Part shown: in pieces, positions 10,513-51,794 of the stretch
Position numbering within the stretch: the stretch's first letter is position 1
Layout of the letters: every line of letters starts with the position of its first letter
Assembly (NCBI GenBank): GCA_010672925.1
Contig: JAAHFP010000013.1
Coordinates: 1-64,000 of the forward strand
Source of the DNA: Symploca sp. SIO1C2
GTDB lineage: Bacteria; Cyanobacteriota; Cyanobacteriia; Cyanobacteriales; Coleofasciculaceae
Direction: 5' to 3'
Length of the DNA stretch: 64,000 nucleotides
Notes under the pieces: generated by a model
What the model saw: only the letters and a program-made list of their open reading frames with translations
Database searches by the model: none
What the model was told of the DNA's origin: nothing
Translations under genes and position numbers: made by a program

Positions 10513-12519
10513 TTATTTGGTACAATCAGGATAAGTTAAAGTCACCGTTGTGCCCTGACCTTTACCAGGACTATCTAATTGTATGTGACCACCCATCATT
10601 TCTACAAACTGTTTGCAAATTGCTAAGCCTAAGCCAGCACCACCATAACGTTGTTTGATGGAGTTATCTTCTTGAACAAAAGCTTCTAACAAACGTTCCT
10701 TTTGGCTCATCTCAATACCAATACCAGTGTCAGATACCTTAATTTGTACCATCGGCTGCTCTACCAGTTTAATAACCGTTATGCGGACTTCCCCAGTCTC
10801 AGTAAATTTGAAAGCGTTGGCCAGTAAATTAGTGATAACTTGTTTGAGCTTAGCTTTGTCGGCATAAATCTGCTCAACCTCGCAACTAATAATAAAATTT
10901 AGCTCCCGGCGCTGGGTTACGAGACTAAATAGCTCACGTTGCTCTTCCAGAAAAGAAACAAGATTCACAGGCTCCAACTCGACCCTCATCTTGCCTTCTT
11001 CTATTTTTGTGATGTCTAAAACATCGTTAATAATCGCCACTAGGCTTTGAGCAGACTTATCAGCTAATTGGATATAGTTATTTAGCTCTTCCTGGTTGGG
11101 ATATGAACCTGTGCTCAAAATTTGCAGGTAGTTTAGCGTTGAGGCTAAGGGAGTAAGTAATTCATGGCTGGTAGATGCCAGAAAATTTGATTTGAGTCGG
11201 CTAGACTCCTCTGCTACTTTGCGGGCCAGCTTGAGTTCTTGATTATGCATTTCCAACTCGTGGAGTTGATACTGCATGACTGCCATTGCTAAGTGGATGC
11301 CTATGGACTCAACTAACTCAATGTCTTCATCAGTCCAAGGAGGAGCTTGATTTTTTTTGTACTCTCGCCAAACCTCGAAAGACTTACGAGGTCGCTGCTG
11401 ACGCTCATCCGAGTCCCAATATCCAGCCCAGAGAGTTTCTGTATTGACAGCGTTGCGGAAAATGGTGAGGCAACCGAGGGAGTCCTGGCTATTGTGTTGA
11501 AGAGGGAGAACAACTATTCCTCGGATAGAGGTAGCTTGGAATGCCCAGCTAAAATCTGCTAATTCGGTTTCTTGGTAGAGGTCAGTTACCACTTGTAGTT
11601 TTCTCAAATTAGTATACTGAGAACTGGGAGAGTCTTTGAGCATCAATTGTTGTTGCCAGAAGGACTGTTGTTCTAGCCAAGCTGGTTGTTGTGGTTCTAC
11701 CAAAGCTGGCTGCACACCGCAGGTGTAAAGAGCTGGGGCTTCTGTATTTATTGCTCTTAAATAGAGTCTACCACCTGAACCTCGGACAGACCTGACGATT
11801 CTTTCTAGAACCAGTTGCAATATTTCCTTAATCGGACGTGGTGAGTGCAGCAAGGGGGTAATCTGATTGATCATGGTTTCCTGCCGAACCTGCTCTCTTG
11901 CTTGAGTCAACAGACTTGATTGAGCGATTGCGATGGATACTTGCTCTGCTACTAATTGGACTAGTTCTAAATCTTGCTCTGAAAAGGCTCTTGGTTGAGA
12001 GTGGTGAGATACCAGTAGACCCCAGAGGCGCTGTTGGTAGAAAATTGGCACTACTAGGGAAGAGAGAACCCCCATTGCCTTGAGATATTCTATGTGACAG
12101 GGGTCTACCGATCGCTTAACAATTTCTCTTATCGGTTTTGAGCTAGTAGGTTCAGCTGTAAAGTCGCTGCGACTCAGGGTAATTTGCTCCGATGCCACAT
12201 CCACAATGGAGCGCTGTCTAGTTTTGATCAACATCTCACGAGCTAGGGGAGGAATATCTGTGGCAGGAAAATTGAGTCCCTTCAAAGATGGGAGACGTTT
12301 CTGAGCAATGGACTCGGCAATCACTTGTCCACTAGCATCTGGATGAAAGCGATAGATCTTTACTCGGTCAGTTTGCAAAAATGAGCGCATTTCGGCCACA
12401 GTTGCCGATAAAATATCCTGTAGCTCTAAAGACTGGCGGATTTTATTCGTTATGCGATGCAGTAATCCTCCGTAAGTTGTCACTTTTGTCGCTTCCTGGT
12501 ATTGTTTTGGGCGACCCAT
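10513..12519 (-). CDS. Knotless-phytochrome-like sensor histidine kinase (GAF - GAF/PHY - HisKA - HATPase)
   Basis: 668 residues, no membrane segment. GAF1 (about 18-205) has the phytochrome-type signatures FPATDIPPLARE and DPCHIEYLKAMGV, with Cys141 followed by His142, the canonical bilin-attachment pair. The second domain (about 215-425) carries an insertion with PRKSF (377-381) and WRE, the PRxSF and WxE motifs of the phytochrome tongue, as in Cph2-type (group II) phytochromes that lack the N-terminal PAS and knot. HisKA has SHELLTPL (phospho-acceptor His452). The HATPase has N-box NLLANAFKF, DTGIGIE and GAGLGLAIC and looks intact. A red/far-red sensor is the natural reading, but bilin binding is unproven. 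No response regulator is next to it. Confidence 0.75.
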   Translation of the reverse strand: MGRPKQYQEATKVTTYGGLLHRITNKIRQSLELQDILSATVAEMRSFLQTDRVKIYRFHPDASGQVIAESIAQKRLPSLKGLNFPATDIPPLAREMLIKTRQRSIVDVASEQITLSRSDFTAEPTSSKPIREIVKRSVDPCHIEYLKAMGVLSSLVVPIFYQQRLWGLLVSHHSQPRAFSEQDLELVQLVAEQVSIAIAQSSLLTQAREQVRQETMINQITPLLHSPRPIKEILQLVLERIVRSVRGSGGRLYLRAINTEAPALYTCGVQPALVEPQQPAWLEQQSFWQQQLMLKDSPSSQYTNLRKLQVVTDLYQETELADFSWAFQATSIRGIVVLPLQHNSQDSLGCLTIFRNAVNTETLWAGYWDSDERQQRPRKSFEVWREYKKNQAPPWTDEDIELVESIGIHLAMAVMQYQLHELEMHNQELKLARKVAEESSRLKSNFLASTSHELLTPLASTLNYLQILSTGSYPNQEELNNYIQLADKSAQSLVAIINDVLDITKIEEGKMRVELEPVNLVSFLEEQRELFSLVTQRRELNFIISCEVEQIYADKAKLKQVITNLLANAFKFTETGEVRITVIKLVEQPMVQIKVSDTGIGIEMSQKERLLEAFVQEDNSIKQRYGGAGLGLAICKQFVEMMGGHIQLDSPGKGQGTTVTLTYPDCTK

Positions 12520-38113: not shown

Positions 38114-38794
38114 TTAATTTTTGGTATTACTCAAACGGTAGCCCATCCCATGAACTGTCTCAATTAAATTGTTGGGCGCACCTGCTGCTTTTAGCTTCAG
38201 GCGCAAACTTCTCAAATGGACTTTTACTGTATCTTCTTCTACTTTCTCCTCGGTCGGCCAAATATGTTGTATAATTGCCCGACGACTAAGAAGGCGGTGG
38301 CTATGGCGCAAGAGTAACTCTAGGATACAGTATTCTTTAGGGGTTAGGTGGATGGGAGTTTGAGCGTAGCTAACTTCGTAGCTACTTGGATCGAGGCGCA
38401 AGTTACCCCACTCTAAAACCGGTGACAAGGAACTATGACCCCGGCGTAACAAAGCACGAATGCGAGCAAATAACTCTCCCAAATCAACGGGTTTGATGAT
38501 GTAGTCATCTGCACCAGCATCTAGCCCAGATATTTTATCACTGACGGTATCGCGGGCAGTCACCATCAGGATAGGCATTTGATAACCCTGCGATCGCAAA
38601 AGTTGGCAAAAGCTGATGCCATCGAGTTCTGGTAACATGACATCTAGCAGTAGCAGATCATAATCGCTCACTTTAATGTATTCTAGAGCTGACTCTGCTT
38701 CAAAAGCCCGATCAACAACATAGAGTTGGTCAGTTAGGGCTTCCTCTAAGGTTTCAGCCAAGCGGCTATCATCTTCAACTAAAAGAATCCTCAT
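38114..38794 (-). CDS. ccaR: CcaR-type response regulator (green-light chromatic acclimation)
   Basis: 226 residues. The OmpR-type receiver has Asp8/Asp9, phospho-acceptor Asp51 (LLLLDVMLPELDG) and Lys101 (IKPVDLGELFARIRALLRRG). The winged helix has PKEYCILELLLRHSHRLLSR and EEDTVKVHLRSLRLKLKAAG. The sequence closely follows my recollection of Synechocystis CcaR (VLEWGxxRLDPSxYEVSY, ETVHGxGYRL). It is divergent from the phycoerythrin-linker operon, with a perfect double CcaR G-box in between. Its partner CcaS, a cyanobacteriochrome kinase, is not within reach in the window. Confidence 0.88.
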   Translation of the reverse strand: MRILLVEDDSRLAETLEEALTDQLYVVDRAFEAESALEYIKVSDYDLLLLDVMLPELDGISFCQLLRSQGYQMPILMVTARDTVSDKISGLDAGADDYIIKPVDLGELFARIRALLRRGHSSLSPVLEWGNLRLDPSSYEVSYAQTPIHLTPKEYCILELLLRHSHRLLSRRAIIQHIWPTEEKVEEDTVKVHLRSLRLKLKAAGAPNNLIETVHGMGYRLSNTKN

Positions 38795-38988
38795 CCTGTC
38801 TCTTTGCTTCTAGGTTCAAATTTAGCAAAAAAAGGTTCCGTTTTGAGAAAACTTAGCAAAAAAGTCATCTGGGTCTGAAGCAAGGGCAAAATTGTAAACT
38901 TATATTGCAAAGTTTAATACTTGTGTCTCGTCAGGTTGCATATTGATCCTTGGAGCCTGTTGTCTACAGTGGTTCGTATTTCGGATTC

Positions 38989-39010
38989 CTTTCCGATTTC
39001 TTTCCGATTT
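38989..39010 (+). promoter_or_regulatory. CcaR-binding G-box (tandem CTTTCCGATTT)
   Basis: Two perfect, adjacent copies of the 11-mer CTTTCCGATTT (38989-38999 and 39000-39010) match the known G-box direct repeat (CTTTNCNATTT twice) bound by CcaR. It lies 104 bases before the cpeC start and about 195 bases from the ccaR start. It predicts green-light activation of the cpeC operon. Bases 38795-39113 hold no gene; CCAGT/ACTGG, a small inverted repeat, lies just downstream of the box. Confidence 0.9.
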
Positions 39011-39113
39011 CTTCACCAGTTTCTGTACTGGGAGTTTGTTAAGTTTTCTTGATTTTTTCAACTAAATCTAGACACAAGCTACAAAACTTCAGCATCAAGG
39101 AGATGATTTTCCT

Positions 39114-39989
39114 ATGACATTTGGACCTGCCTCCCGACTGGGAGTTGCCTTATTTGAAGAAACCCCACCTTGGGAAATGATCCCAGGTCGTTCCGACGAA
39201 GAAGCAGAAAGCATCATTCGTGCTGTCTACCGGCAAGTTCTGGGCAATGCCTACGTTATGGAGAGCGAACGGGCAGCAATTCCTGAATCCCAGTTCAAGC
39301 GCGGAGAATTGAGTACTCGTGAGTTTGTTAGGGCTGTGGGTAAATCTGACCTCTACAAGTCCCGTTTCTTTGATACTTGCCCTCGCTATCGGTTCATTGA
39401 ACTCAACTTCAAACATTTCCTCGGTCGTGCTCCTGATGGGTTAGAAGAGATGCGTGCCCACAGCACCATCTTGGATACTCAAGGATTCGAGGCAGAAATT
39501 GATTCCTACCTAGACAGCGACGAATATCAGAATGCCTACGGAGAAAGCTTTGTTCCCTACTACCGGGGCTACAAGACTCAACCGGGTAAAAATATGGTGG
39601 GCTTCACTCACCTGTTTGCTCTGGCGCGAGGAGCTTCCAGCAGCGACCTCAAAGGCAGCCTTTCTGGAAAAAGCCCTGTGCTGAACCAGTACGTCATCCA
39701 GGAAACTCCTCTAGCGGTAATTCCTCCTTCTGGTGGTTCACCGGGAAATGGTTGGTCTTTCCAAGAAACTTTGGCTGGGGCGCGGACACGCTTGGGTTCT
39801 GGTGCTGGCGAAGAAGGCAAAGTCTATCGTATCGAAGTTACCGGCTATAGCTCTCCCGGTAAAGTTCGTCGTATCTCCCAGTTCCGCCGCAGCAACAAGG
39901 TTTATTTTGTGCCTTTTGACAAACTATCACAAGAATATAAGCGCATTCACGCTTTGGGTGGCGTAATTTCCAGTATTACTGCCTGCTAA
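39114..39989 (+). CDS. cpeC: Phycoerythrin-associated rod linker with CpcD-type C-terminal domain
   Basis: 291 residues. The PBS-linker domain (about 20-150) has [55 protein letters not shown] and EIDSYLDSDEYQ. The CpcD-like domain (about 233-290) has VYRIEVTGYSS and KVYFVPFDKLSQEYKRIHAL. Such linkers join phycobiliprotein hexamers in the rod. It is the first gene after the CcaR box and has a good ribosome-binding site (AAGGAG). The cpeC label follows position in the cpeC..ESTR-type operon; exact linker subtype is not certain from sequence alone. Confidence 0.85.
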   Translation: MTFGPASRLGVALFEETPPWEMIPGRSDEEAESIIRAVYRQVLGNAYVMESERAAIPESQFKRGELSTREFVRAVGKSDLYKSRFFDTCPRYRFIELNFKHFLGRAPDGLEEMRAHSTILDTQGFEAEIDSYLDSDEYQNAYGESFVPYYRGYKTQPGKNMVGFTHLFALARGASSSDLKGSLSGKSPVLNQYVIQETPLAVIPPSGGSPGNGWSFQETLAGARTRLGSGAGEEGKVYRIEVTGYSSPGKVRRISQFRRSNKVYFVPFDKLSQEYKRIHALGGVISSITAC

Positions 39990-40022
39990 TTCGGATTAAA
40001 GATTGTTTTAAGGAGAATTTCA

Positions 40023-40790
40023 ATGAGTGTCGTTTTAGATACCCCAGTAGAACTGCGCCCGTCGAGCAATCCTGACGATGTGGCAGCAGTCATTCAAGCG
40101 GTTTACAAGCAAGTCTTAGGTAACCCCCACGTCATGGAAAGCGAACGGTTGGCTACCGCTGAGTCTCAGTTGGCCAACGGTAACTTCACGGTACGGGAAT
40201 TTGTCCGCGTTGTTGCTAAATCAGACTTCTATCGCAGCCGCTACTTTGAGTCTTGTGCCCCCTATCGCTTTGTTGAACTTAACTTCAAGCATTTGTTAGG
40301 TCGCGCTCCCACTGACCAAGCTGAACTTTCTGAGCATATTTGCCTTTGTATTGAGCAGGGCTATGATGCAGAAATCGACTCCTATATCGATAGTCAAGAG
40401 TATCAGGAGAAATTCGGCGAAAATATCGTACCTTTCTATCAAGGTGCTCAAACTCAAGTCGGACAAAAAAATGTTGGCTACAACCGTACCCTGTCTCTAT
40501 ATCAAGGATATGCCGGGGTAGACAGTGCTTTTACTGGAGCTCGTTTAGTTAGCGATGTTGCTGGCAACGGTGCTACCAAAGCAGCTGTTCCTACTACTGG
40601 AGGTCGTCTGTCAGCTTACAAGGATGCTACAGAAAAGACTTTCAAGATTCTGGTGACAGGGTCAAAATTTGATAGCCCTCGTCGAGTCAGTACTACTGAG
40701 TACATTGTCCCCGGAAATCGCATGACCCCACAAATCCAGCGGATTCATCGAGCCGGTGGCAAAATTGCCAGCATCACTGAGGTGGTGTGA
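40023..40790 (+). CDS. cpeD: Phycoerythrin-associated rod linker
   Basis: 255 residues. PBS-linker domain with [40 protein letters not shown] and [20 protein letters not shown], followed by a CpcD-type tail (FKILVTGSKFDSPRR ... MTPQIQRIHRAGGKIASI). The ribosome-binding site AAGGAG lies eight bases upstream. It is 33 bases after cpeC, clearly in the same operon. A long inverted repeat (40821-40886) follows before cpcL. Assignment as CpeD rather than CpeE is by gene order. Confidence 0.8.
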   Translation: MSVVLDTPVELRPSSNPDDVAAVIQAVYKQVLGNPHVMESERLATAESQLANGNFTVREFVRVVAKSDFYRSRYFESCAPYRFVELNFKHLLGRAPTDQAELSEHICLCIEQGYDAEIDSYIDSQEYQEKFGENIVPFYQGAQTQVGQKNVGYNRTLSLYQGYAGVDSAFTGARLVSDVAGNGATKAAVPTTGGRLSAYKDATEKTFKILVTGSKFDSPRRVSTTEYIVPGNRMTPQIQRIHRAGGKIASITEVV

Positions 40791-40820
40791 AGTAACCACG
40801 GCTAACAGCTAAGTAATCAA

Positions 40821-40886
40821 TGGTTCGTAGTTGAGCTTTGGTGCTTACATCTTAAATGGAGGCTACTAAAGCCTAGCTACGAACCA
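40821..40886 (+). promoter_or_regulatory. Long hairpin between cpeD and cpcL
   Basis: TGGTTCGTAG (40821-40830) and CTACGAACCA (40877-40886) are perfect 10-bp inverted repeats, with a further stem possibility GAGCTTT/AAAGCCT inside. There is no U-tract, so it is more likely an mRNA processing, stability or attenuation site than a full terminator. It sits in a 130-base spacer, the longest gap before cpeE. Confidence 0.6.
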
Positions 40887-40920
40887 ATGTGGTAGAAAAT
40901 TCCTTTAATAAACCAAAAAA

Positions 40921-41646
40921 ATGGCAATTCCTTTACTTGAGTATGCGCCAACTAGTCAAAACCAGCGCGTTGCTAGCTATGAAATCCTAGGGGAAGAACA
41001 GCCCCGGATTTTCACTACCGAAAACCTGCCTTCCCCTCTAGAAATCGATGATATGATTGGGGCAGCTTACCGGCAGATTTTTAACGAGCAACAAATGTTG
41101 GCAAGCAACCGCCAACAAGGCTTGGAGTCTCAACTACGCAATGGTCAAATTACAGTGCGGGACTTCATTCGCGGACTAGTACTTTCTGAACCCTTCTGGC
41201 GACGCAATTACGAAGTCAATAACAATTACCGCCTTGCCCAGATGTGTGTCCAGCGAATTCTTGGGCGAGAAGTTTACAACGATCGCGAAAAGATCGCCTG
41301 GTCTATCGTCCTAGCAACCAAAGGGTTACAAGGGTTTGTTGATGACTTACTTAACAGTGAGGAGTATCTGGATAACTTTGGTTTTGATACCGTCCCCTAT
41401 CAACGGCGGCGGATCTTGCACCAACGCTCTCAAGGAGAGCTTCCCTTTGCCCGAATGCCCCGTTATGGTGCGGACTACCGGGCTCAACTGGAGGCACTAG
41501 GATACTTCCAACCGATGGAACCCCCCTATATTCCCCCAGAATGGCTGGGCAAGGTAGGTAAGGTGATTACTATTGCTGGCGCTGGAGTGTTAGCCCTCGG
41601 CACAGCAGCAATTGCCCTATCAGCTTGGGGAATTATTTCCCTGTGA
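40921..41646 (+). CDS. cpcL: CpcL (CpcG2-type) membrane-anchored rod linker
   Basis: 241 residues. The CpcG-type linker domain (about 18-165) has [52 protein letters not shown] and [18 protein letters not shown], followed by [16 protein letters not shown]. Instead of the core-binding tail of ordinary CpcG, residues about 215-239 form one hydrophobic helix ([20 protein letters not shown]). This is the hallmark of CpcL, which holds rod-only phycobilisomes to the thylakoid membrane and favours photosystem I. The start lacks a clear Shine-Dalgarno sequence, unlike its neighbours. Its place inside a phycoerythrin-linker operon under a CcaR box parallels cpeC-cpcG2-cpeR1 of Nostoc punctiforme. Confidence 0.9.
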
Positions 41647-41701
41647 TCTTGGCTTGACAAGTACACAAAAGACAAACTTTATTAATTTAAGGAGAAATCA
41701 G

Positions 41702-42472
41702 ATGGCAACTTTAGCCGCAGCATTAGTCAGTGATCCCGTAGAATTGCGCATTGGTGCAACAGAAGATGACTTACAGCTAGTCATTCGCGCTGTTTACAAG
41801 CAGGTTTTGGGTAATGCTCATGTACTCTCCCACCAGCGCCTAGACAGTGCAGAATCGATGCTTCGCAATGGCGATATTACAGTTCGCGGCTTTGTCCGGA
41901 TGGTAGCTCAATCTGAGTTGTATAAGTCCCTCTTTTTTGAAGGAAATCCTCCCTATCGCTATATTGAGTTAAACTGCAAACACTTACTTGGTCGCGCCCC
42001 CCTAGATCAGGCAGAAATTTCCCAGCAGGTACAGATTTACATCGAACAAGGCTGCGCTGCAGAAATCGATTCTTACATCGATAGTGAAGAGTACATCCTG
42101 AATTTTGGTGAAAATATCGTTCCCTATCCCCGCTGTGTCAGCAGCCAAACAGGAGTCAAGAACAATGTCTACAACCAGACAGTTTCCTTACTAGGTGGCT
42201 ACGCCAATAGTGATGTCAGCAGCAAACAAGCTCAATCGACTTCTACAGTAGGTGCTAACCTGCCCCAGAAAGTCAAGGTTGCTAGTTCTCGTGGTGGTGC
42301 TTCTGGCTCAACTAATAAACGGTTCTGCATTGCTGTATCCAGACCAGGAGTTACCCCTGTTGTCAAGCAGAGTAACGCAACTTATGAGGTTGGCTACAAC
42401 CAGCTGTCCAAGAAAATTCAAAACATTCAAAAAGCGGGAGGCAAAATTATTAGTATTACTGAGTTAGTCTAA
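41702..42472 (+). CDS. cpeE: Phycoerythrin-associated rod linker
   Basis: 256 residues from ATG 41702, which has GGAG 8 bases upstream; the frame is open further 5' but overlaps cpcL. The PBS-linker domain has [40 protein letters not shown] and [20 protein letters not shown]. The C-terminal CpcD-like stretch ([12 protein letters not shown] ... [20 protein letters not shown]) is more diverged than in cpeC. It resembles the two linkers beside cpeB (50170 and 51000) more than cpeC, judged by [26 protein letters not shown] and YIEQG. Confidence 0.8.
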
Positions 42473-42760
42473 AATTTGCAGCTGTTCAGCTGGGGTATCT
42501 GGAAAAGAATAGCAAGTAGAAGCCAAAAACTGGGTTTCTGGTGCTGCTTTTTAAAGCAAGAGGCAGAGGACAAAGGTTCCAAGAAAATCAAGCTTCAAGG
42601 CAGTCCCTAGGAAAAGTTTTCATTTCTAGGCGATGAAATTCGGAGCATTCCTGTTGCCGGTTGCCCTTTGCCTACTTACAGGTCATACTCTCAATGAGAG
42701 TAATTACTCAGATAACTAACTCAAAGTTTATTCTAATCGCCCCAAACAACTCTTTTTGTC

Positions 42761-43282
42761 GTGGATATTACCAAATTTGTCGAGGATTCTCTAGGACAAT
42801 GGCGCTCTCAACGAAGTTCTCACAACTTAGCTTTTACTTACTTTGAACAAGTAACTTCAACTATTGACATTGTCCCTTTGGCTAAAGATGATTCAGAAGT
42901 GATCGATTTGTGTAAATCCAATGAAATTGATCCGCAAATGGTTAGCCACCCCTTTCGCATGAGTTGGGAAGGAGAGTCTGATTGGGAGGAAGGAGAAACC
43001 TTTGAGGGAACGACAATTTTAGTGCCAGTTCCTGATCCGGATAATCTGCAAGTGGGAAGGTTACTGCGAGGTCAAGGCTACGCAGAAACTATTCCTTCCA
43101 TTGGTAAGTATCATTTTACTGAAGATGGCACATTTGTCCTTTTAACCGCATACGATAGAGCGGCAGCTGAGGAAAAAATTTGGTTTGTTAACCCTAATTT
43201 GCGTATGCGAGTTTCCTTAATTAAAACCAGTGCGGGCTCTGGGGTACTAACTGCATCTTTTTCTTCAGAAATTCGTTCTTGA
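42761..43282 (+). CDS. cpeS: CpeS phycoerythrobilin lyase
   Basis: 173 residues from a GTG start (VDITKFVEDSLGQWRSQRSS). The S/U-type lyase beta-barrel pattern is present: W-SQR-SHNLAF near the start, LCKSNEIDP, SWEGES-DW, GTTILVPVPD, GRLLRGQGYAE and WFVNPNLRMRVSLIK. CpeS attaches phycoerythrobilin to the Cys82-type sites of phycoerythrin subunits (Cys80 in both CpeA and CpeB of this window). About 290 gene-free bases precede it; it may be read with cpeE. It is followed within 40 bases by cpeT, as in known cpeESTR operons. Confidence 0.8.
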   Translation: MDITKFVEDSLGQWRSQRSSHNLAFTYFEQVTSTIDIVPLAKDDSEVIDLCKSNEIDPQMVSHPFRMSWEGESDWEEGETFEGTTILVPVPDPDNLQVGRLLRGQGYAETIPSIGKYHFTEDGTFVLLTAYDRAAAEEKIWFVNPNLRMRVSLIKTSAGSGVLTASFSSEIRS

Positions 43283-43319
43283 TTCAGGATTGAAAGATTA
43301 ACAGGATTTTTAAAATTAT

Positions 43320-43931
43320 ATGGAAGAAGATTTAATGCTAACTCTAGCTCACTGGATGGCAGGAGAGTTTAGTAATCAAAAACAAGCGTTGGAAGATTCC
43401 ATAAATTATGCCCATATTCGTGTTTTTTTTCGTCCTTTACCTTGGGATTTTTTTTCGGGAATTGGCTTTTATTCTGAGCAAGTTTATGACTACGACCTCT
43501 GGACACCCTACCGCCAAGGAGTTCATCGATTTGTTGACCAAGGAGAGCAAATTTACATTGAAAATTACAAACTAATAGACCCCATACTCTATGCCGGATC
43601 TGGACGAGAACTAGACATCTTAAAAACGATTACTCCCGACTGTATTGAACGCCGCTATAACTGTTCTATGGTGTTTCACCGGGAAGGTAATCTATTTCAG
43701 GGGAATGTTGAAGGGAATTGTTGTTTCATTGAAAGAAATGGCCAACAAACTTATTTAGATAGTGATGTAAAACTAACAGAAACAACTTTTGTGAGTCTAG
43801 ACAAAGGGAAGGATGTCAAGAGCCACAAACAGGTGTGGGGTTCAACAGCCGGTCATTTAAAATTTGAAAAGCGCCAAAGCTATGCATCGGAAGTTCCCAA
43901 CATTGAGAAATTAGAAATGGTCAATTACTAA
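43320..43931 (+). CDS. cpeT: CpeT/CpcT-family bilin lyase or chaperone
   Basis: 203 residues. LAHWMAGEFSNQKQAL, AHIRVFFRPLPWDFF, GFYSEQVYDYDLWTPYRQG, DCIERRYNCSMVF and VWGSTAGHLKFEK are the core motifs of the CpcT/CpeT family, which acts on the Cys153/165-type site of beta subunits or assists phycoerythrin maturation. ATG 43335 is an alternative start. It lies between cpeS and cpeR in the same direction. Confidence 0.88.
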   Translation: MEEDLMLTLAHWMAGEFSNQKQALEDSINYAHIRVFFRPLPWDFFSGIGFYSEQVYDYDLWTPYRQGVHRFVDQGEQIYIENYKLIDPILYAGSGRELDILKTITPDCIERRYNCSMVFHREGNLFQGNVEGNCCFIERNGQQTYLDSDVKLTETTFVSLDKGKDVKSHKQVWGSTAGHLKFEKRQSYASEVPNIEKLEMVNY

Positions 43932-44096
43932 TTTTCTTGACCAGAAAGATTTTAGATTTTAGATTTTATAATTGAAGAATTAAAATGGTCACAAGCCCCT
44001 AAACTTATTCATTGGGTAAATCTAAAACTTCAATCTTCAATCTTCAATTGCTTAACTCTCCCCTAGCTGTAATAGAAATTAAGGGTTACAGGAACC

Positions 44097-44402
44097 ATGC
44101 TACCTCCAGTCGCTCGTAAAAAAATGCAAGCTTGGATTCGCAGCCGTCACCTGATTTGTTCGGGAAATTTTTTTCTGTTTGAAACCTTAGATTATTCAGC
44201 AGTTGAGCGATTTGAACAATGTGTAACAAGTTTAGGGGGAACTTTAATTTCTGTCGAACCTACTAAACGAGTTTGGATGGGAACTCATCGCAAAATTCTG
44301 CTCTATCAGGCTAGAGCCAGTCTGCATACTCCCCACCACGACTTGAAACAATATTGGTTCAAGTATGGTAGCTTTAATACCCGATTTGATGAAACGCCTT
44401 AG
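44097..44402 (+). CDS. cpeR: CpeR, activator of phycoerythrin genes
   Basis: 101 residues: MLPPVARKKMQAWIRSRHLI, then GNFFLFETLDYSAVERFEQC, LGGTLISVEPTKRVWMG and RASLHTPHHDLKQYWF match CpeR, the small positive regulator needed for cpeBA expression. Being last in the CcaR-controlled operon, it would pass the green-light signal on to cpeBA (minus strand at 48757-49842). A spacer of 165 bases with TTTTAGA repeats separates it from cpeT. Confidence 0.85.
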   Translation: MLPPVARKKMQAWIRSRHLICSGNFFLFETLDYSAVERFEQCVTSLGGTLISVEPTKRVWMGTHRKILLYQARASLHTPHHDLKQYWFKYGSFNTRFDETP

Positions 44403-44489
44403 TTTAGTCATTGGTCATTTGTACTCATAACGCTTGACCAAAAATCCAAAATTATACGACTAAAGTACTTGGGATAAGTTTAAAAAATT

Positions 44490-44530
44490 TAGATTTTTAG
44501 CGGTTATCATTAGATTTTTAGCGGTTATCA
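44490..44530 (+). promoter_or_regulatory. 20-base direct repeat upstream of the tandem linker gene
   Basis: The 20-mer from 44490 (TAGATTTTTAGCGG, then TTATCA) recurs at 44511 with a period of 21 bases, two helical turns. The second copy runs directly into the ribosome-binding site AGGAGG. It could be a tandem operator or a slippage duplication of the leader. Confidence 0.45.
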
Positions 44531-44546
44531 GGAGGAACATAGTACC

Positions 44547-46340
44547 ATGATTAATACTTTATTGCCTTCAGTACTAGGCAAAGCCTCGGAATTAGGAATC
44601 AGTTTTTTTGAAGAGACAGCTCCTATTCAACTCTCAGCCAATTTCTCTTCTGAAGAAGTCGAAGGGGTTCTCCGGGCTATCTACCGCCAGGTACTAGGCA
44701 ATGCTCACATTATGGATAGTGAGCGCCTTACCGTTCCCGAATCCCAGTTGAGAAATGGAGAAATTACGGTGCGGGAATTCGTGCGGCAAGTAGCGAAATC
44801 GGAACTTTATCAAAACCGCTTTTTTGATAACTGTCCCCAACTTCGCTCTATCGAGCTCAATTTTAAACACTTGCTCGGACGTGCTCCGGAAAGCCGTGAA
44901 GAACTGAGCCTTCACGTCCAAATTCTTAATGAAGGAGGCTATTGGTCTGAGATTGATTCCTACATCGATAGCGATGAGTATCAAGAGGCTTTCGGGGAGA
45001 ACACTGTTCCCTATTACCGAGGTTACAAAACCCAGACAGGAAAAAAAGTAGTTGGTTTTACTCATCTGTTTCAACTGCTGCGGGGCTCTTGTAGTAGCGA
45101 TCTCTCCAGTTTCGTGGGAAATAGCTCTCGCTTACAGCGATCGCTTTTCACCAGCCAGCCCAGCGCCATAGTTCCTCTATCCTTGCCTCCTAAGCCAGTA
45201 ACTGATGTTCAACAACTGCTCGCTAAAACATTAGGTCTCAAGAGCTATCAGCCCGTTAGCCCTGAGGAAACTCCCAGCGCTGCACCGACTGATGTTGACT
45301 TAGGACTAGCCTTGCGGCAACAGTACCAAGCCTTTGAAGATGAGACTCCGATGGAGTTGCTGCCCGCTTCCTCAGAAGGAGAAGTTGAAACTGTGATCCG
45401 TGCCGTCTACCGGCAAGTATTGGGCAATGCCCATGTTATGGAGAGCGAACGCTTGAGGGTTCCAGAATCTCAGCTCAAACGAGGGGAAATCAGCGTTCGC
45501 GAGTTCGTGCGCCAGGTAGCGAAATCAACACTCTACCGCTCTCGATTTTTCGACAATTGCCCCCGCTATCGTTCCATGGAATTGAACTTTAAACATCTTT
45601 TGGGACGTGCTCCTGATGATTATTCTGAGACCTTCTCTCACAGTCAGATCCTTGATCAAGGAGGCTTTGAAGCGGAGATCGATTCCTACCTCGACAGTGA
45701 TGAGTACCAAGAGGCTTTTGGGGAGAATATCGTACCCTATTATCGGGGTTACCGCACCCAGACTGGCAAGAAACTGCTTGGGTTTACTAATACATTTAAA
45801 CTCTACAAGAGTCTCTCTACCAGTGATAAAGCAGGAGTGGAAGGTATCCAGCCTCGGTTGGCAAAACCCCTCATGTACAACAATCCTTCAGGAATAGCTC
45901 CTGTCACAAATATTCAGGAATTGATAGCTGAGGCACTCAAGCCGCAGCCTTGGAAGGCAATCAAGCCAGTGGAAGTACAACCAACAGAAGCAGAGTCTGC
46001 CTTGCAGCGCCAGTATCAGGAACAGGAGGCTCTCTTGGAAACCTTACACAAACAATTGGCTGAGTTACGACCTTCAGCAGCCTTTGGTGAGCAAACATTG
46101 AGCAAGTGGCAGACTGTGAAAGAGGATCCTCAAACAGCTCCTACCTATTCCTCTCCTCTGGAGCAACTCTTTATAGAAGAGTCCCCACAACTGCCCTCCG
46201 AATCCCTGGAACAGCGCATTCAAGAACAGGCTCAAGAAATTGCCAACTTAGAAGCCAAAATTGCTGATTCGCGCCGTTTGGCTGCCTTTGGAGAAGCAAG
46301 GTTGGGTAAGTGGCAACGTCGTTCGTTCTCTATTAGGTAG
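44547..46340 (+). CDS. Tandem double-domain phycobilisome rod linker with coiled-coil tail
   Basis: 597 residues. Two complete PBS-linker domains are present: about 28-160 ([35 protein letters not shown]) and about 275-405 ([35 protein letters not shown]). Each is followed by the YYRGY(K/R)TQTGKK motif, so the gene arose by duplication of a CpeC-like linker. There is no CpcD domain. The last 120 residues are charged, Gln/Glu-rich, probable coiled coil, with two copies of AAFGE-x2-L-x-KWQ (near residues 510 and 577). Normal rod linkers are 250-290 residues with one domain. A strong ribosome-binding site (AGGAGG) is present. It presumably spans two hexamers; the tail's partner is unknown. Confidence 0.85.
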   Translation: MINTLLPSVLGKASELGISFFEETAPIQLSANFSSEEVEGVLRAIYRQVLGNAHIMDSERLTVPESQLRNGEITVREFVRQVAKSELYQNRFFDNCPQLRSIELNFKHLLGRAPESREELSLHVQILNEGGYWSEIDSYIDSDEYQEAFGENTVPYYRGYKTQTGKKVVGFTHLFQLLRGSCSSDLSSFVGNSSRLQRSLFTSQPSAIVPLSLPPKPVTDVQQLLAKTLGLKSYQPVSPEETPSAAPTDVDLGLALRQQYQAFEDETPMELLPASSEGEVETVIRAVYRQVLGNAHVMESERLRVPESQLKRGEISVREFVRQVAKSTLYRSRFFDNCPRYRSMELNFKHLLGRAPDDYSETFSHSQILDQGGFEAEIDSYLDSDEYQEAFGENIVPYYRGYRTQTGKKLLGFTNTFKLYKSLSTSDKAGVEGIQPRLAKPLMYNNPSGIAPVTNIQELIAEALKPQPWKAIKPVEVQPTEAESALQRQYQEQEALLETLHKQLAELRPSAAFGEQTLSKWQTVKEDPQTAPTYSSPLEQLFIEESPQLPSESLEQRIQEQAQEIANLEAKIADSRRLAAFGEARLGKWQRRSFSIR

Positions 46341-48230: not shown

Positions 48231-48494
48231 TTAGAGCATGCCCATATTAGCCAAACCCAAAATGGCTCCAAATCCAATTACATGACCTAAACTAGTTGTT
48301 GCTAAGAGAGCAGGGAATCCCATGCCACCAAACATTTCCGGCATAGGTAACTCAGGCTTTACACTTGGTTGAGCCATGGTAAACTTACCAAGGGCGATCG
48401 CTAATATATTACAAATAATCATGACCACCCCTACTTTGGGACTCCAAGCAACGGTCTGGGGAACAGCAGCAGCAAGAGTTATTAAATGAATCAT
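48231..48494 (-). CDS. psaK: Photosystem I subunit PsaK
   Basis: 87 residues with two membrane helices: WSPKVGVVMIICNILAIALG and PALLATTSLGHVIGFGAILG, as in PsaK (subunit X), a peripheral PSI subunit. It is on the same strand as cpeBA, 262 bases downstream of cpeA, behind that operon's terminator. Placement of a PSI subunit gene within the phycoerythrin region is unusual. The repeat element at 48127-48222 directly follows its stop codon. Confidence 0.9.
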   Translation of the reverse strand: MIHLITLAAAVPQTVAWSPKVGVVMIICNILAIALGKFTMAQPSVKPELPMPEMFGGMGFPALLATTSLGHVIGFGAILGLANMGML

Positions 48495-48756: not shown

Positions 48757-49260
<504 letters not shown>

Positions 49261-49308: not shown

Positions 49309-50169
<861 letters not shown>

Positions 50170-50964
50170 ATGGGAAAATTAACCACATCAGCAACTCTAG
50201 GTTTAGATGCCTTTGAAGTTGAGCCCCTAGAACTTCGACCGAATGCGACGGAAGAAGACCTACAGGCAGTCATTCGTGCAGTTTACAGGCAGGTATTAGG
50301 TAATCAGTACGTGATGGAAAGCGATCGCCTCTCCAGTGCTGAGTCCCAACTGCGTAATGGGGAGATTACCGTTCGGGGATTTGTCAGGGAGGTAGCTCAA
50401 TCGAGCTTGTATCAATCTCTGTTTTTTAATGGAGCCTACCAATATCGTTTTATTGAGTTAAACTACAAGCACCTACTAGGTCGTGCTCCTCAAGATCAGG
50501 CAGAAATTTCCCAGCATGTTCAAATCTACAGCGAACAGGGATACGAAGCTGAAATTGATTCCTACATTGATAGCAGCGAGTATAGCCAAAAGTTTGGTGA
50601 GTGGGTTGTTCCCTACCCCTGTGGTATTCGCTCTCAAGTTGGGCTGAAGAATGAAGCCTTCAACCGGATGTTTTCCTTGTTGCGGGGACCTGCCACCAAT
50701 GACAGTGATAGTCGTCCTCGGTTAATTTCCTCGATAGCCGCGAACTTGCCAACTCCCATTAAGGCACCAGCTGTGGGCAATGGAGCTAACTACGGCAATA
50801 CAGGTAAGCGTTATTCCATTGCTTATTCTACCTCTCAGGCAGCAGCTCGACTGAATCGGTTCAGTAAGCAAGAAAAGGTAATCAGCTACGAGCAAATGAC
50901 GCCATTTGTGCAAAAAATTCATCGGACTGGTGGCAAGATTCTCAGTGTTACTGAGCTAGCTTAA
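50170..50964 (+). CDS. Phycobilisome rod linker (phycoerythrin-type)
   Basis: 264 residues from ATG 50170 ([20 protein letters not shown]); an upstream in-frame TTG is rejected. The PBS-linker domain has [40 protein letters not shown] and [20 protein letters not shown]. The C-terminal CpcD-like stretch has [16 protein letters not shown] and [19 protein letters not shown]. It is a close paralogue of the next gene (shared [20 protein letters not shown] and [15 protein letters not shown] / [15 protein letters not shown]), so a recent tandem duplication. Location beside cpeB suggests it links phycoerythrin hexamers. Confidence 0.85.
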
Positions 50965-50999: not shown

Positions 51000-51794
51000 A
51001 TGGGCAATTTAGCAATGTCAGCAACCTTAGGGTTGGATGCTTTTGAAGTACCTCCCCTAGAATTGCGTCCCAATTACACCGAAGATGACTTACAAACAGT
51101 GATCAGAGCGGTTTACAAGCAGGTACTGGGCAACGAATACCTAATGGATAGCCAACGCCTAGAAAGTGCCGAAGCTCTATTGAGAAACGGTTCGATTACT
51201 GTTCGGGATTTTGTCAGAGTTGTGGCAAAATCTCCTTTGTATCAGTCCCTATTCTTTCATGGCTCTCCCCAGTATCGATTCATCGAACTGAACTTCAAAC
51301 ATTTGTTAGGTCGTCCTCCGCAAGATCAAGCAGAAATTGACGAGCACGTCAAGATCTATTACGAACAGGGATACGAGGCAGAAATTAACTCTTATCTTGA
51401 TAGCGAGGAGTATCTCCAAAACTTTGGGGATGATATTGTTCCTTATCCCCGTAGCATTCGTACCCAAGCAGGGGTTAAGACAGAAGGCTTCAATCGGATG
51501 TTTTCTTTGTTAAGGGGACCTGCCACTAGTGATCGTGGTAACAGTGCTCAATTAATTACCTCCCTAGCCGCTAACGCCTCCACTCCCATTAAGGCACCAG
51601 CTGTAGGAAATGGAGCTAACTACACCAATACAGGCAAACGTTTTCTCATTGTTTTTTCTAGTTGTGCAGCTAATGCTCGGATGAATCGGTTGAGTAAGCA
51701 AGAATACGTGATTACCTACAACCAGATGTCCCCAACTGTTCAGAAAATTCATAAACAGGGTGGGAAAATTCTCAGTATTACTGAGGTAGCTTAA
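51000..51794 (+). CDS. Phycobilisome rod linker (tandem paralogue)
   Basis: 264 residues, same architecture and length as the preceding linker, 35 bases downstream and with GGAG before the ATG. Domain motifs: [60 protein letters not shown] and, at the end, [20 protein letters not shown]. Sequence divergence is greatest in the first 60 residues of the linker domain and in the CpcD-like part, suggesting different hexamer partners. Probably cotranscribed with the previous gene and the small capping linker that follows. Confidence 0.85.

Follow-up and report, generated by a model that had tools for sequence, protein, structure and literature searches.

A probable CcaS/CcaR-controlled phycoerythrin operon in Symploca sp. 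SIO1C2 and the tail-bearing linker gene that follows it

How many genes does a single green-light box command, and where is the sensor that would operate it? The question is raised by a stretch of 64,000 nucleotides (nt) from the cyanobacterium Symploca sp. SIO1C2 (positions 1 to 64,000 of contig JAAHFP010000013.1, hereafter the window), in which ccaR, the gene of a response regulator, is divergent from a series of phycoerythrin (PE) genes with a tandem G-box in between. A first-pass annotation had taken positions 38114–44402 for a complete PE operon under green-light control. We assign a probability of roughly 0.8 to the reading that this is a PE operon controlled by the sensor CcaS and the regulator CcaR, a system of chromatic acclimation (CA) class CA2 joined by the CA1 gene cpcL, with an enlarged gene set of the cpeCDESTR type. 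The genes, the box, the clade of the regulator, the sensor gene and the synteny are directly established. At its regulatory core the system is a CcaS/CcaR pair of the ordinary kind; the operon under it is unusually full and the sensor gene displaced, and the unexpected part is the tail-bearing linker at the operon's end.

The Tandem G-Box and Its Regulator

The box upstream of cpeC was described earlier as a perfect tandem, and both copies of CTTTCCGATTT are indeed exact. The window contains no second perfect 11-bp tandem; from its base composition, about 1.6e-6 such 22-mers would be expected by chance in the genome. Nor does the 8.67-Mb genome hold another such pair, this site being its sole match to the pattern CTTTNCGATTT-N0-12-CTTTNCGATTT. 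According to PMC8256508, the published Synechocystis G-box, in the version used in E. coli, is CTTTCCGATTTCTTTACGATTT; the window box is identical to it at 21 of 22 bases. When the 11-mers were counted singly with up to two mismatches, the window held 26 against 27.7 expected, and genome-wide there were 19 lone copies of CTTTNCGATTT, compared with 33 of the reversed control. As lone 11-mers are no commoner than chance, we dropped these counts as evidence, and only the tandem arrangement counts, not the 11-mer word.

The box starts 126 nt before the start of cpeC. This distance is 127 nt in genome G173 and 126 nt in G242, both of the same genus, and 130 nt in five further loci with cpeC first. 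Within the genus the spacer between box and cpeC is conserved; the box itself is identical in G173 and differs by one change in G242. Allowing no more than one mismatch, we found the tandem pattern in 42 of 291 sampled genomes of the order and the reversed control in 7. The second half-box is intact in four of these matches (the window, G173, G193 and G137); the others have a degenerate one. One box locus was examined for each of 36 of these 42 genomes; of the six left out, four share sequence with loci L221 and L222. A divergent CcaR gene lies within 1.3 kb of the box at 28 of the 36 loci and at 1.7 and 1.4 kb in L206 and L218, and in L193 and L208 phycobilisome genes stand behind the box and no CcaR gene precedes the contig end (148 and 1067 nt away). 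Neither a CcaR gene nor a phycobilisome gene was found at the box loci L216, L221 and L222. The L202 box (G170) comes after, and shares the orientation of, a regulator gene whose product is 56% identical; phycobilisome genes were not found around this box, which is possibly another target of a CcaR relative.

The regulator has a receiver domain and a DNA-binding domain of the OmpR type. A tree of 48 regulators places it within a clade of 35 rows (support 96/92), to which all 32 rows with CTTTCCGATTT at most 1 kb upstream belong, including those of Synechocystis salina and Leptolyngbya PCC 6406, together with three rows that lack it; none of the rows with a species name is from Nostoc punctiforme. 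Its closest group is formed with the regulators of G173, G242, G193 and G137 (support 100/99), and the four paralogs from its own genome included in the tree, the best of them 63% identical, all fall outside the clade. This placement bears out the earlier naming of the protein as CcaR-like.

The Sensor Gene Lies Away From the Operon

No ccaS gene was found within the window. With the protein at the CcaS position of Calothrix PCC 7103 as query, a single strong hit was obtained in the genome (C35:231656-234229, with 70% identity in one part and 77% in the other), which belongs to an intact frame of 880 residues (C35:231614-234256) on the same contig, about 193 kb from ccaR. The earlier claim of completeness does not hold for the window. 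The predicted protein has a GAF domain, three PAS domains, HisKA and HATPase, and begins with a hydrophobic stretch that passes as a membrane helix. The closest PDB entries to its GAF domain are those of RcaE (8k9o, 7ckv). The domain keeps the cysteine, the glutamate of FPxEVFP and the lysine of KAKL, and we infer from sequence that it is of the green/red type.

Directly before ccaS lie pebA and pebB, which encode two bilin reductases and both score above the NCBIfam cut-off. The same pebA-pebB-ccaS series adjoins ccaR in G173, and in G193 and G137 ccaS adjoins ccaR with the peb genes also close; in several named relatives a GAF kinase, which we take for ccaS, lies alongside the box operon or at its distal end. 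Proximity of ccaS to ccaR is a usual, not a defining, trait of CcaS/CcaR systems. From the closeness of pebAB and ccaS to ccaR in G173, G193 and G137 we conclude that the genes were linked in the ancestor and have separated here, probably so and barring a misassembly of the contig.

The distance of 193 kb, the many GAF kinases in the genome and a second CcaR-like regulator that adjoins a GAF kinase on contig C57 would agree with CcaR being an orphan here that answers to another kinase. We regard this as improbable, since the single strong CcaS match is intact over its full length and the linked arrangement is retained in G173, G193 and G137. The second regulator (G000:C57:59929-64604, with the kinase next to it; L105:4930-9605) is 57% identical, and the GAF domain of that kinase keeps the cysteine and the lysine but not the glutamate. 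The window also encodes a GAF histidine kinase at 10513–12519 (best PDB match 8w26), which is not CcaS.

Still less credible is control of the PE genes by RcaE and RcaC (CA3) through an L-box, with the G-box as a relic. The gene content resembles the Fremyella cpeCDESTR operon, and 75 L-box-like sites with up to two mismatches were counted in the genome against 10 for the reversed control, in part instances of one recurrent sequence. However, an exact match to the L-box pattern used is absent from the genome, and no site, exact or with two mismatches, stands before the PE genes: none of the 75 precedes cpeC or cpeBA, and the only one in the PE cluster lies inside the two-REP linker gene. Moreover, no other GAF domain among those aligned keeps cysteine, glutamate and lysine together, and the G-box is retained in the genus.

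An Enlarged Gene Set Behind the Box

The genes behind the box are listed in Table 1. Between 38114 and 44402 our gene calls and coordinates agree with the earlier ones, the identity of CpeR being given by synteny. The interval is too short, in that a linker gene with two REP domains continues on the same strand. The call of CpcL stands: the protein joins a CpcG-type REP domain to a C-terminal hydrophobic helix (hydropathy 2.18 at residues 215–233), and its best PDB match, Synechocystis CpcL (8hfq), covers residues 1–241 at an E-value of 3.9e-102, the helix included. The two lyases are likewise confirmed by their Pfam matches.

Table 1. Features of the phycoerythrin locus (positions in the window).
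Feature	Position	Strand	Basis
ccaR, OmpR-family response regulator, 226 residues	38114..38794	-	Pfam Response_reg and Trans_reg_C; CcaR clade
Tandem G-box	38989..39010	+	CTTTCCGATTT twice, exact copies at 38989-38999 and 39000-39010
cpeC-type PE rod linker, REP and CpcD	39114..39989	+	Pfam; letter (C, D or E) by order and convention
cpeD-type PE rod linker, REP and CpcD	40023..40790	+	Pfam; letter by order and convention
cpcL, rod-membrane linker, REP and C-terminal hydrophobic helix	40921..41646	+	PDB match 8hfq, hydropathy
cpeE-type PE rod linker, REP and CpcD	41702..42472	+	Pfam; letter by order and convention
cpeS, bilin lyase, GTG start assumed	42761..43282	+	Pfam CpeS 5.6e-61
cpeT, bilin lyase	43320..43931	+	Pfam CpeT 5.7e-67
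cpeR, putative cpeBA activator	44097..44402	+	Name by synteny
Two-REP linker, coiled-coil-like tail, 597 residues, without CpcD	44547..46340	+	Pfam PBS_linker_poly twice; tail alignment
cpeA, presumed indirect target via CpeR	48757..49245	-	NCBIfam phy_ery_CpeA above cut-off
cpeB, presumed indirect target via CpeR	49309..49842	-	NCBIfam phy_ery_CpeB above cut-off

The putative CpeR matched no Pfam or NCBIfam model. Three plasmid-borne PE clusters of named cyanobacteria (Rippkaea PCC 8801, Gloeothece PCC 7424 and Pseudanabaena PCC 7367) have, after cpeT, counterparts that are 70–86% identical and annotated as hypothetical. These clusters (L259, L260, L261) hold linker, lyase, cpeT and cpeR genes, and on two of the stretches phycoerythrobilin reductase genes are present too. 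Fremyella CpeR is reported, in the title of Cobley 2002, to activate cpeBA and to be encoded in cpeCDESTR.

The enlarged regulon of the first-pass annotation is upheld as a gene set and not as a complete system: the set is real and common to G173, where cpeC and all genes up to the beginning of the two-REP linker stand in identical order, and the sensor is missing from it and a fourth linker, with two REP domains, follows. In G137 the same set occurs without cpcL and cpeE. Both cpeS and cpeT lie within the run of genes behind the box at 3 of the 36 loci (the window, G173 and G137; G242 is cut by the contig end), and cpeR does so at 19 of the 36.

The operon is probably switched on by green light. 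In that light the membrane sensor CcaS would phosphorylate CcaR, the phosphorelay thus running in the activating direction, and phosphorylated CcaR would bind the tandem G-box and switch on cpeC-cpeD-cpcL-cpeE-cpeS-cpeT-cpeR as a single transcript, with read-through from cpeR into the gene of the two-REP linker. CpeR would in turn activate cpeBA. The linkers CpeC, CpeD and CpeE, together with the lyases, would serve to make PE rods, CpcL would give a rod antenna anchored for photosystem I, and the two-REP linker would hold two PE hexamers and attach them by its tail rather than by a CpcD domain.

A Family of Linkers With a Common Tail

Pfam finds PBS_linker_poly twice and no CpcD domain in the two-REP linker. 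In its last 196 residues, PDB matches occur only at the edge next to the REP domain, besides two with E-values near 1, and in an alignment of 22 tails L, K, W and R are invariant close to the C-terminus. A single-sequence structure model drew the tail as two helices; with a mean predicted local distance difference test score of 41.8 it was not relied on. The ranking of CpcN as top PDB match of the whole protein was also set aside, as its total sums five domains.

To collect further members we took linkers resembling the window protein and recognized the tail by a C-terminal regular expression; the resulting 37 tail-bearing linkers are not an estimate of frequency. Twenty have one REP domain (one of them, L223, is a contig-end fragment), 15 have two and two have seven. 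They come from several orders and often follow cpeR directly, with cpeR less than 700 nt upstream in 22 of the 37; on the plasmid of Pseudanabaena PCC 7367 (L260), for instance, such a linker gene comes next after cpeR. A profile of REP edge plus tail matched 33 of 388 genomes sampled across the class, many of them outside the order, at an E-value of at most 1e-30, in open frames of 324–791 residues. At 1e-10 it matched 103 of 386 genomes of the phylum, where most of the listed places cover the REP edge only.

The number of REP domains varies within genera: G042 has one whereas its relatives G084, G160 and G185 have two, and likewise G247 has one and G118 two. In a tree of REP domains (124 columns, a quick method with many weak forks, of which only the broad grouping is used) the tail-proximal domains of linkers with one to seven REPs tend to fall together, in a CpeC-like part, with weak support (81). 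The two-REP linker of G173 ends on one contig at residue 262 and resumes on another with overlapping first residues, which may be a true split or an assembly artefact. No description of the tail family was found in open-licence papers, and the tail appears to be previously undescribed.

Some forms stand apart. The seven-REP linkers (L154:8317-14340 in G068 and L155:4004-10033 in G267) are 2007 and 2009 residues long, and four-REP forms of about 1000 residues in G284, G198 and G089 have no tail by the expression used. In 7 of the 37 cases the tail linker is followed by a coiled-coil protein that ends in the same tail. Such proteins are found at L141:13089-15407, L142:4681-7221, L143:2625-4280, L145:5934-8120, L269, L273, L276 and L252:1495-2163; their N-terminus resembles a ribbon-helix-helix domain, with no support from Pfam. 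In the window's own genome none was detected at an E-value of 0.001.

The tail linker lies in an operon behind a CcaR-type box in three lineages. Besides the genus of the window these are G138 (L193), where box, cpeD, cpeR, tail linker, cpcL and ccaS succeed each other on one strand, and G421, from another order, where ccaR is divergent from tail linker, cpcL and ccaS with the degenerate tandem CTTTCCGTTTTCTTTACAATTC in between. A cpcL gene on the same strand lies within 200 nt of the tail linker at 4 of the 37 loci. We tentatively propose, as a doubtful rather than a likely account, an undescribed family of CpeC-like linkers in crown cyanobacteria, with one to seven REP domains and a coiled-coil tail ending in LNKWR-R-F, their genes commonly being the next after cpeR. 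Green light would, via CcaR and in some lineages, cause one to be made along with CpcL. A single linker might string or cluster several PE hexamers and the tail might dock them, possibly on the CpcL/photosystem I antenna, so that the number of REP domains would set antenna size and change between close relatives.

One Transcript or Several

Several observations weigh against one box-driven transcript that carries a complete CcaS/CcaR regulon. Successive genes from cpeC to the two-REP linker are separated by 33, 130, 55, 288, 37, 165 and 144 nt, and the gaps cpeE-cpeS (288), cpeT-cpeR (165) and cpeR-linker (144) could harbour promoters; the first two of these spacers are poorly conserved between the window and G173. 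A consensus scan gave promoter-like matches in the cpeS-cpeT and cpeT-cpeR spacers and a terminator-like match near the end of cpcL (41615–41630). In addition, ccaS is unlinked in this genome, the name of CpeR rests on synteny, a box-like tandem is absent from 34 of the 37 tail-linker loci (stretches of 3.4–30 kb), and box and tail linker lie far apart in G120, G220 and G269. The scan found no terminator-like site in the spacers from cpeC to the two-REP linker. Its totals were 23 promoter-like matches against 17.9 (standard deviation 4.5) in shuffled sequences, no clear excess, and 17 terminator-like matches against 12.2 (standard deviation 3.6); as these totals are near shuffle levels, single sites of either kind mean little. 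As 34 of the 37 loci are without a box, CcaR does not as a rule target the tail linker.

These points could also be accommodated if CcaR drove only the promoter-proximal genes cpeC, cpeD, cpcL and perhaps cpeE, while further promoters served cpeST, cpeR and the two-REP linker. The long, little conserved gap before cpeS, the scarcity of box loci with cpeS and cpeT (three of 36), the 34 boxless tail-linker loci and a cpeC-D-E-S-T-R run outside a box operon at L215 all point that way. Against it stand cpeR, which belongs to the box run at 19 of 36 loci, and the one-strand series of L193, which leads from the box through cpeR and the tail linker to ccaS. We consider such restricted control unlikely, though the most serious of the alternatives, and retain box-driven expression of the whole series.

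Two repeats lie in the spacers. The cpeD-cpcL spacer holds an inverted repeat at 40822–40888 (GGTTCGTAG...CTACGAACC), which is kept with changes in G173 and G242. Just upstream of the start of the two-REP linker, 44489–44530 is a perfect 21-bp direct duplication; the aligned spacer of G173 has no second copy.

Other Genes of the Phycoerythrin Cluster

Beside cpeA and inside the PE cluster lies psaK (48231–48494, above the NCBIfam cut-off). In G173 a CpcL-like linker of 225 residues is encoded between psaK and cpeA, and the window has no such linker. Two more PE rod-linker genes (50146–50964 and 51000–51794) are divergent from cpeBA.

Comparison With Known Systems

In this locus the genes for the PE rod linkers, for the lyases that complete PE, for its activator and for the linker of the CpcL antenna all stand behind one box, and the photosensor gene has probably left the regulon. 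In the CA2 system of Nostoc punctiforme, CcaR reportedly controls cpeC-cpcG2-cpeR1 via a G-box. That operon shares with the window ccaR, the G-box, a PE linker, a CpcL-type linker and CpeR, whereas the window adds cpeD, cpeE, cpeS, cpeT and the two-REP linker, and ccaS is unlinked in its genome. The CA classes have been described (PMC9415938 and PMC12461855), and CcaSR control of PE rod linkers, in several species also of a hydrophobic linker, is already published (PMC4417701). Geminocystis NIES-3708 and NIES-3709 likewise have CcaSR and a light-regulated operon with a PE linker and CpeR; the NIES-3708 operon lacks cpcL, and lyases are not named among its members (PMC4424290; PMC4417701). Nearest in gene content is cpeCDESTR of Fremyella diplosiphon, with linkers, lyases and CpeR in the same order (from the title of Cobley 2002), which belongs to CA3, where RcaEFC is in control (PMC12461855); the window differs in its CcaR box, in cpcL inside the operon and in the tail linker at its end.

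The tail linkers make it testable whether linkers for several hexamers are normal in the PE antennas of thylakoid-bearing cyanobacteria. Multi-hexamer linkers have been shown structurally in Gloeobacteria. To our knowledge, the core linker ApcE, which is among the PDB matches, has several REP domains in every cyanobacterium. MpeD of marine Synechococcus is a chimera for PEI and PEII with two linker domains, and the available part of its description mentions no such tail (PMC2246261). Given this precedent, the presence of two domains in a PE linker is by itself no novelty among crown cyanobacteria, and MpeD and ApcE rule out the notion that multi-REP rod linkers are unknown outside Gloeobacteria. 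Glr1262 and Glr2806 of Gloeobacter and CpcN of Anthocerotibacter resemble the window linker in having more than one pfam00427 domain, CpcN also in lacking CpcD. The window linker differs from all three: per domain, single-REP phycocyanin rod linkers score higher; its REP domains group with CpeC, in a tree without Gloeobacter rows; and beyond the REP edge its tail has no PDB match.

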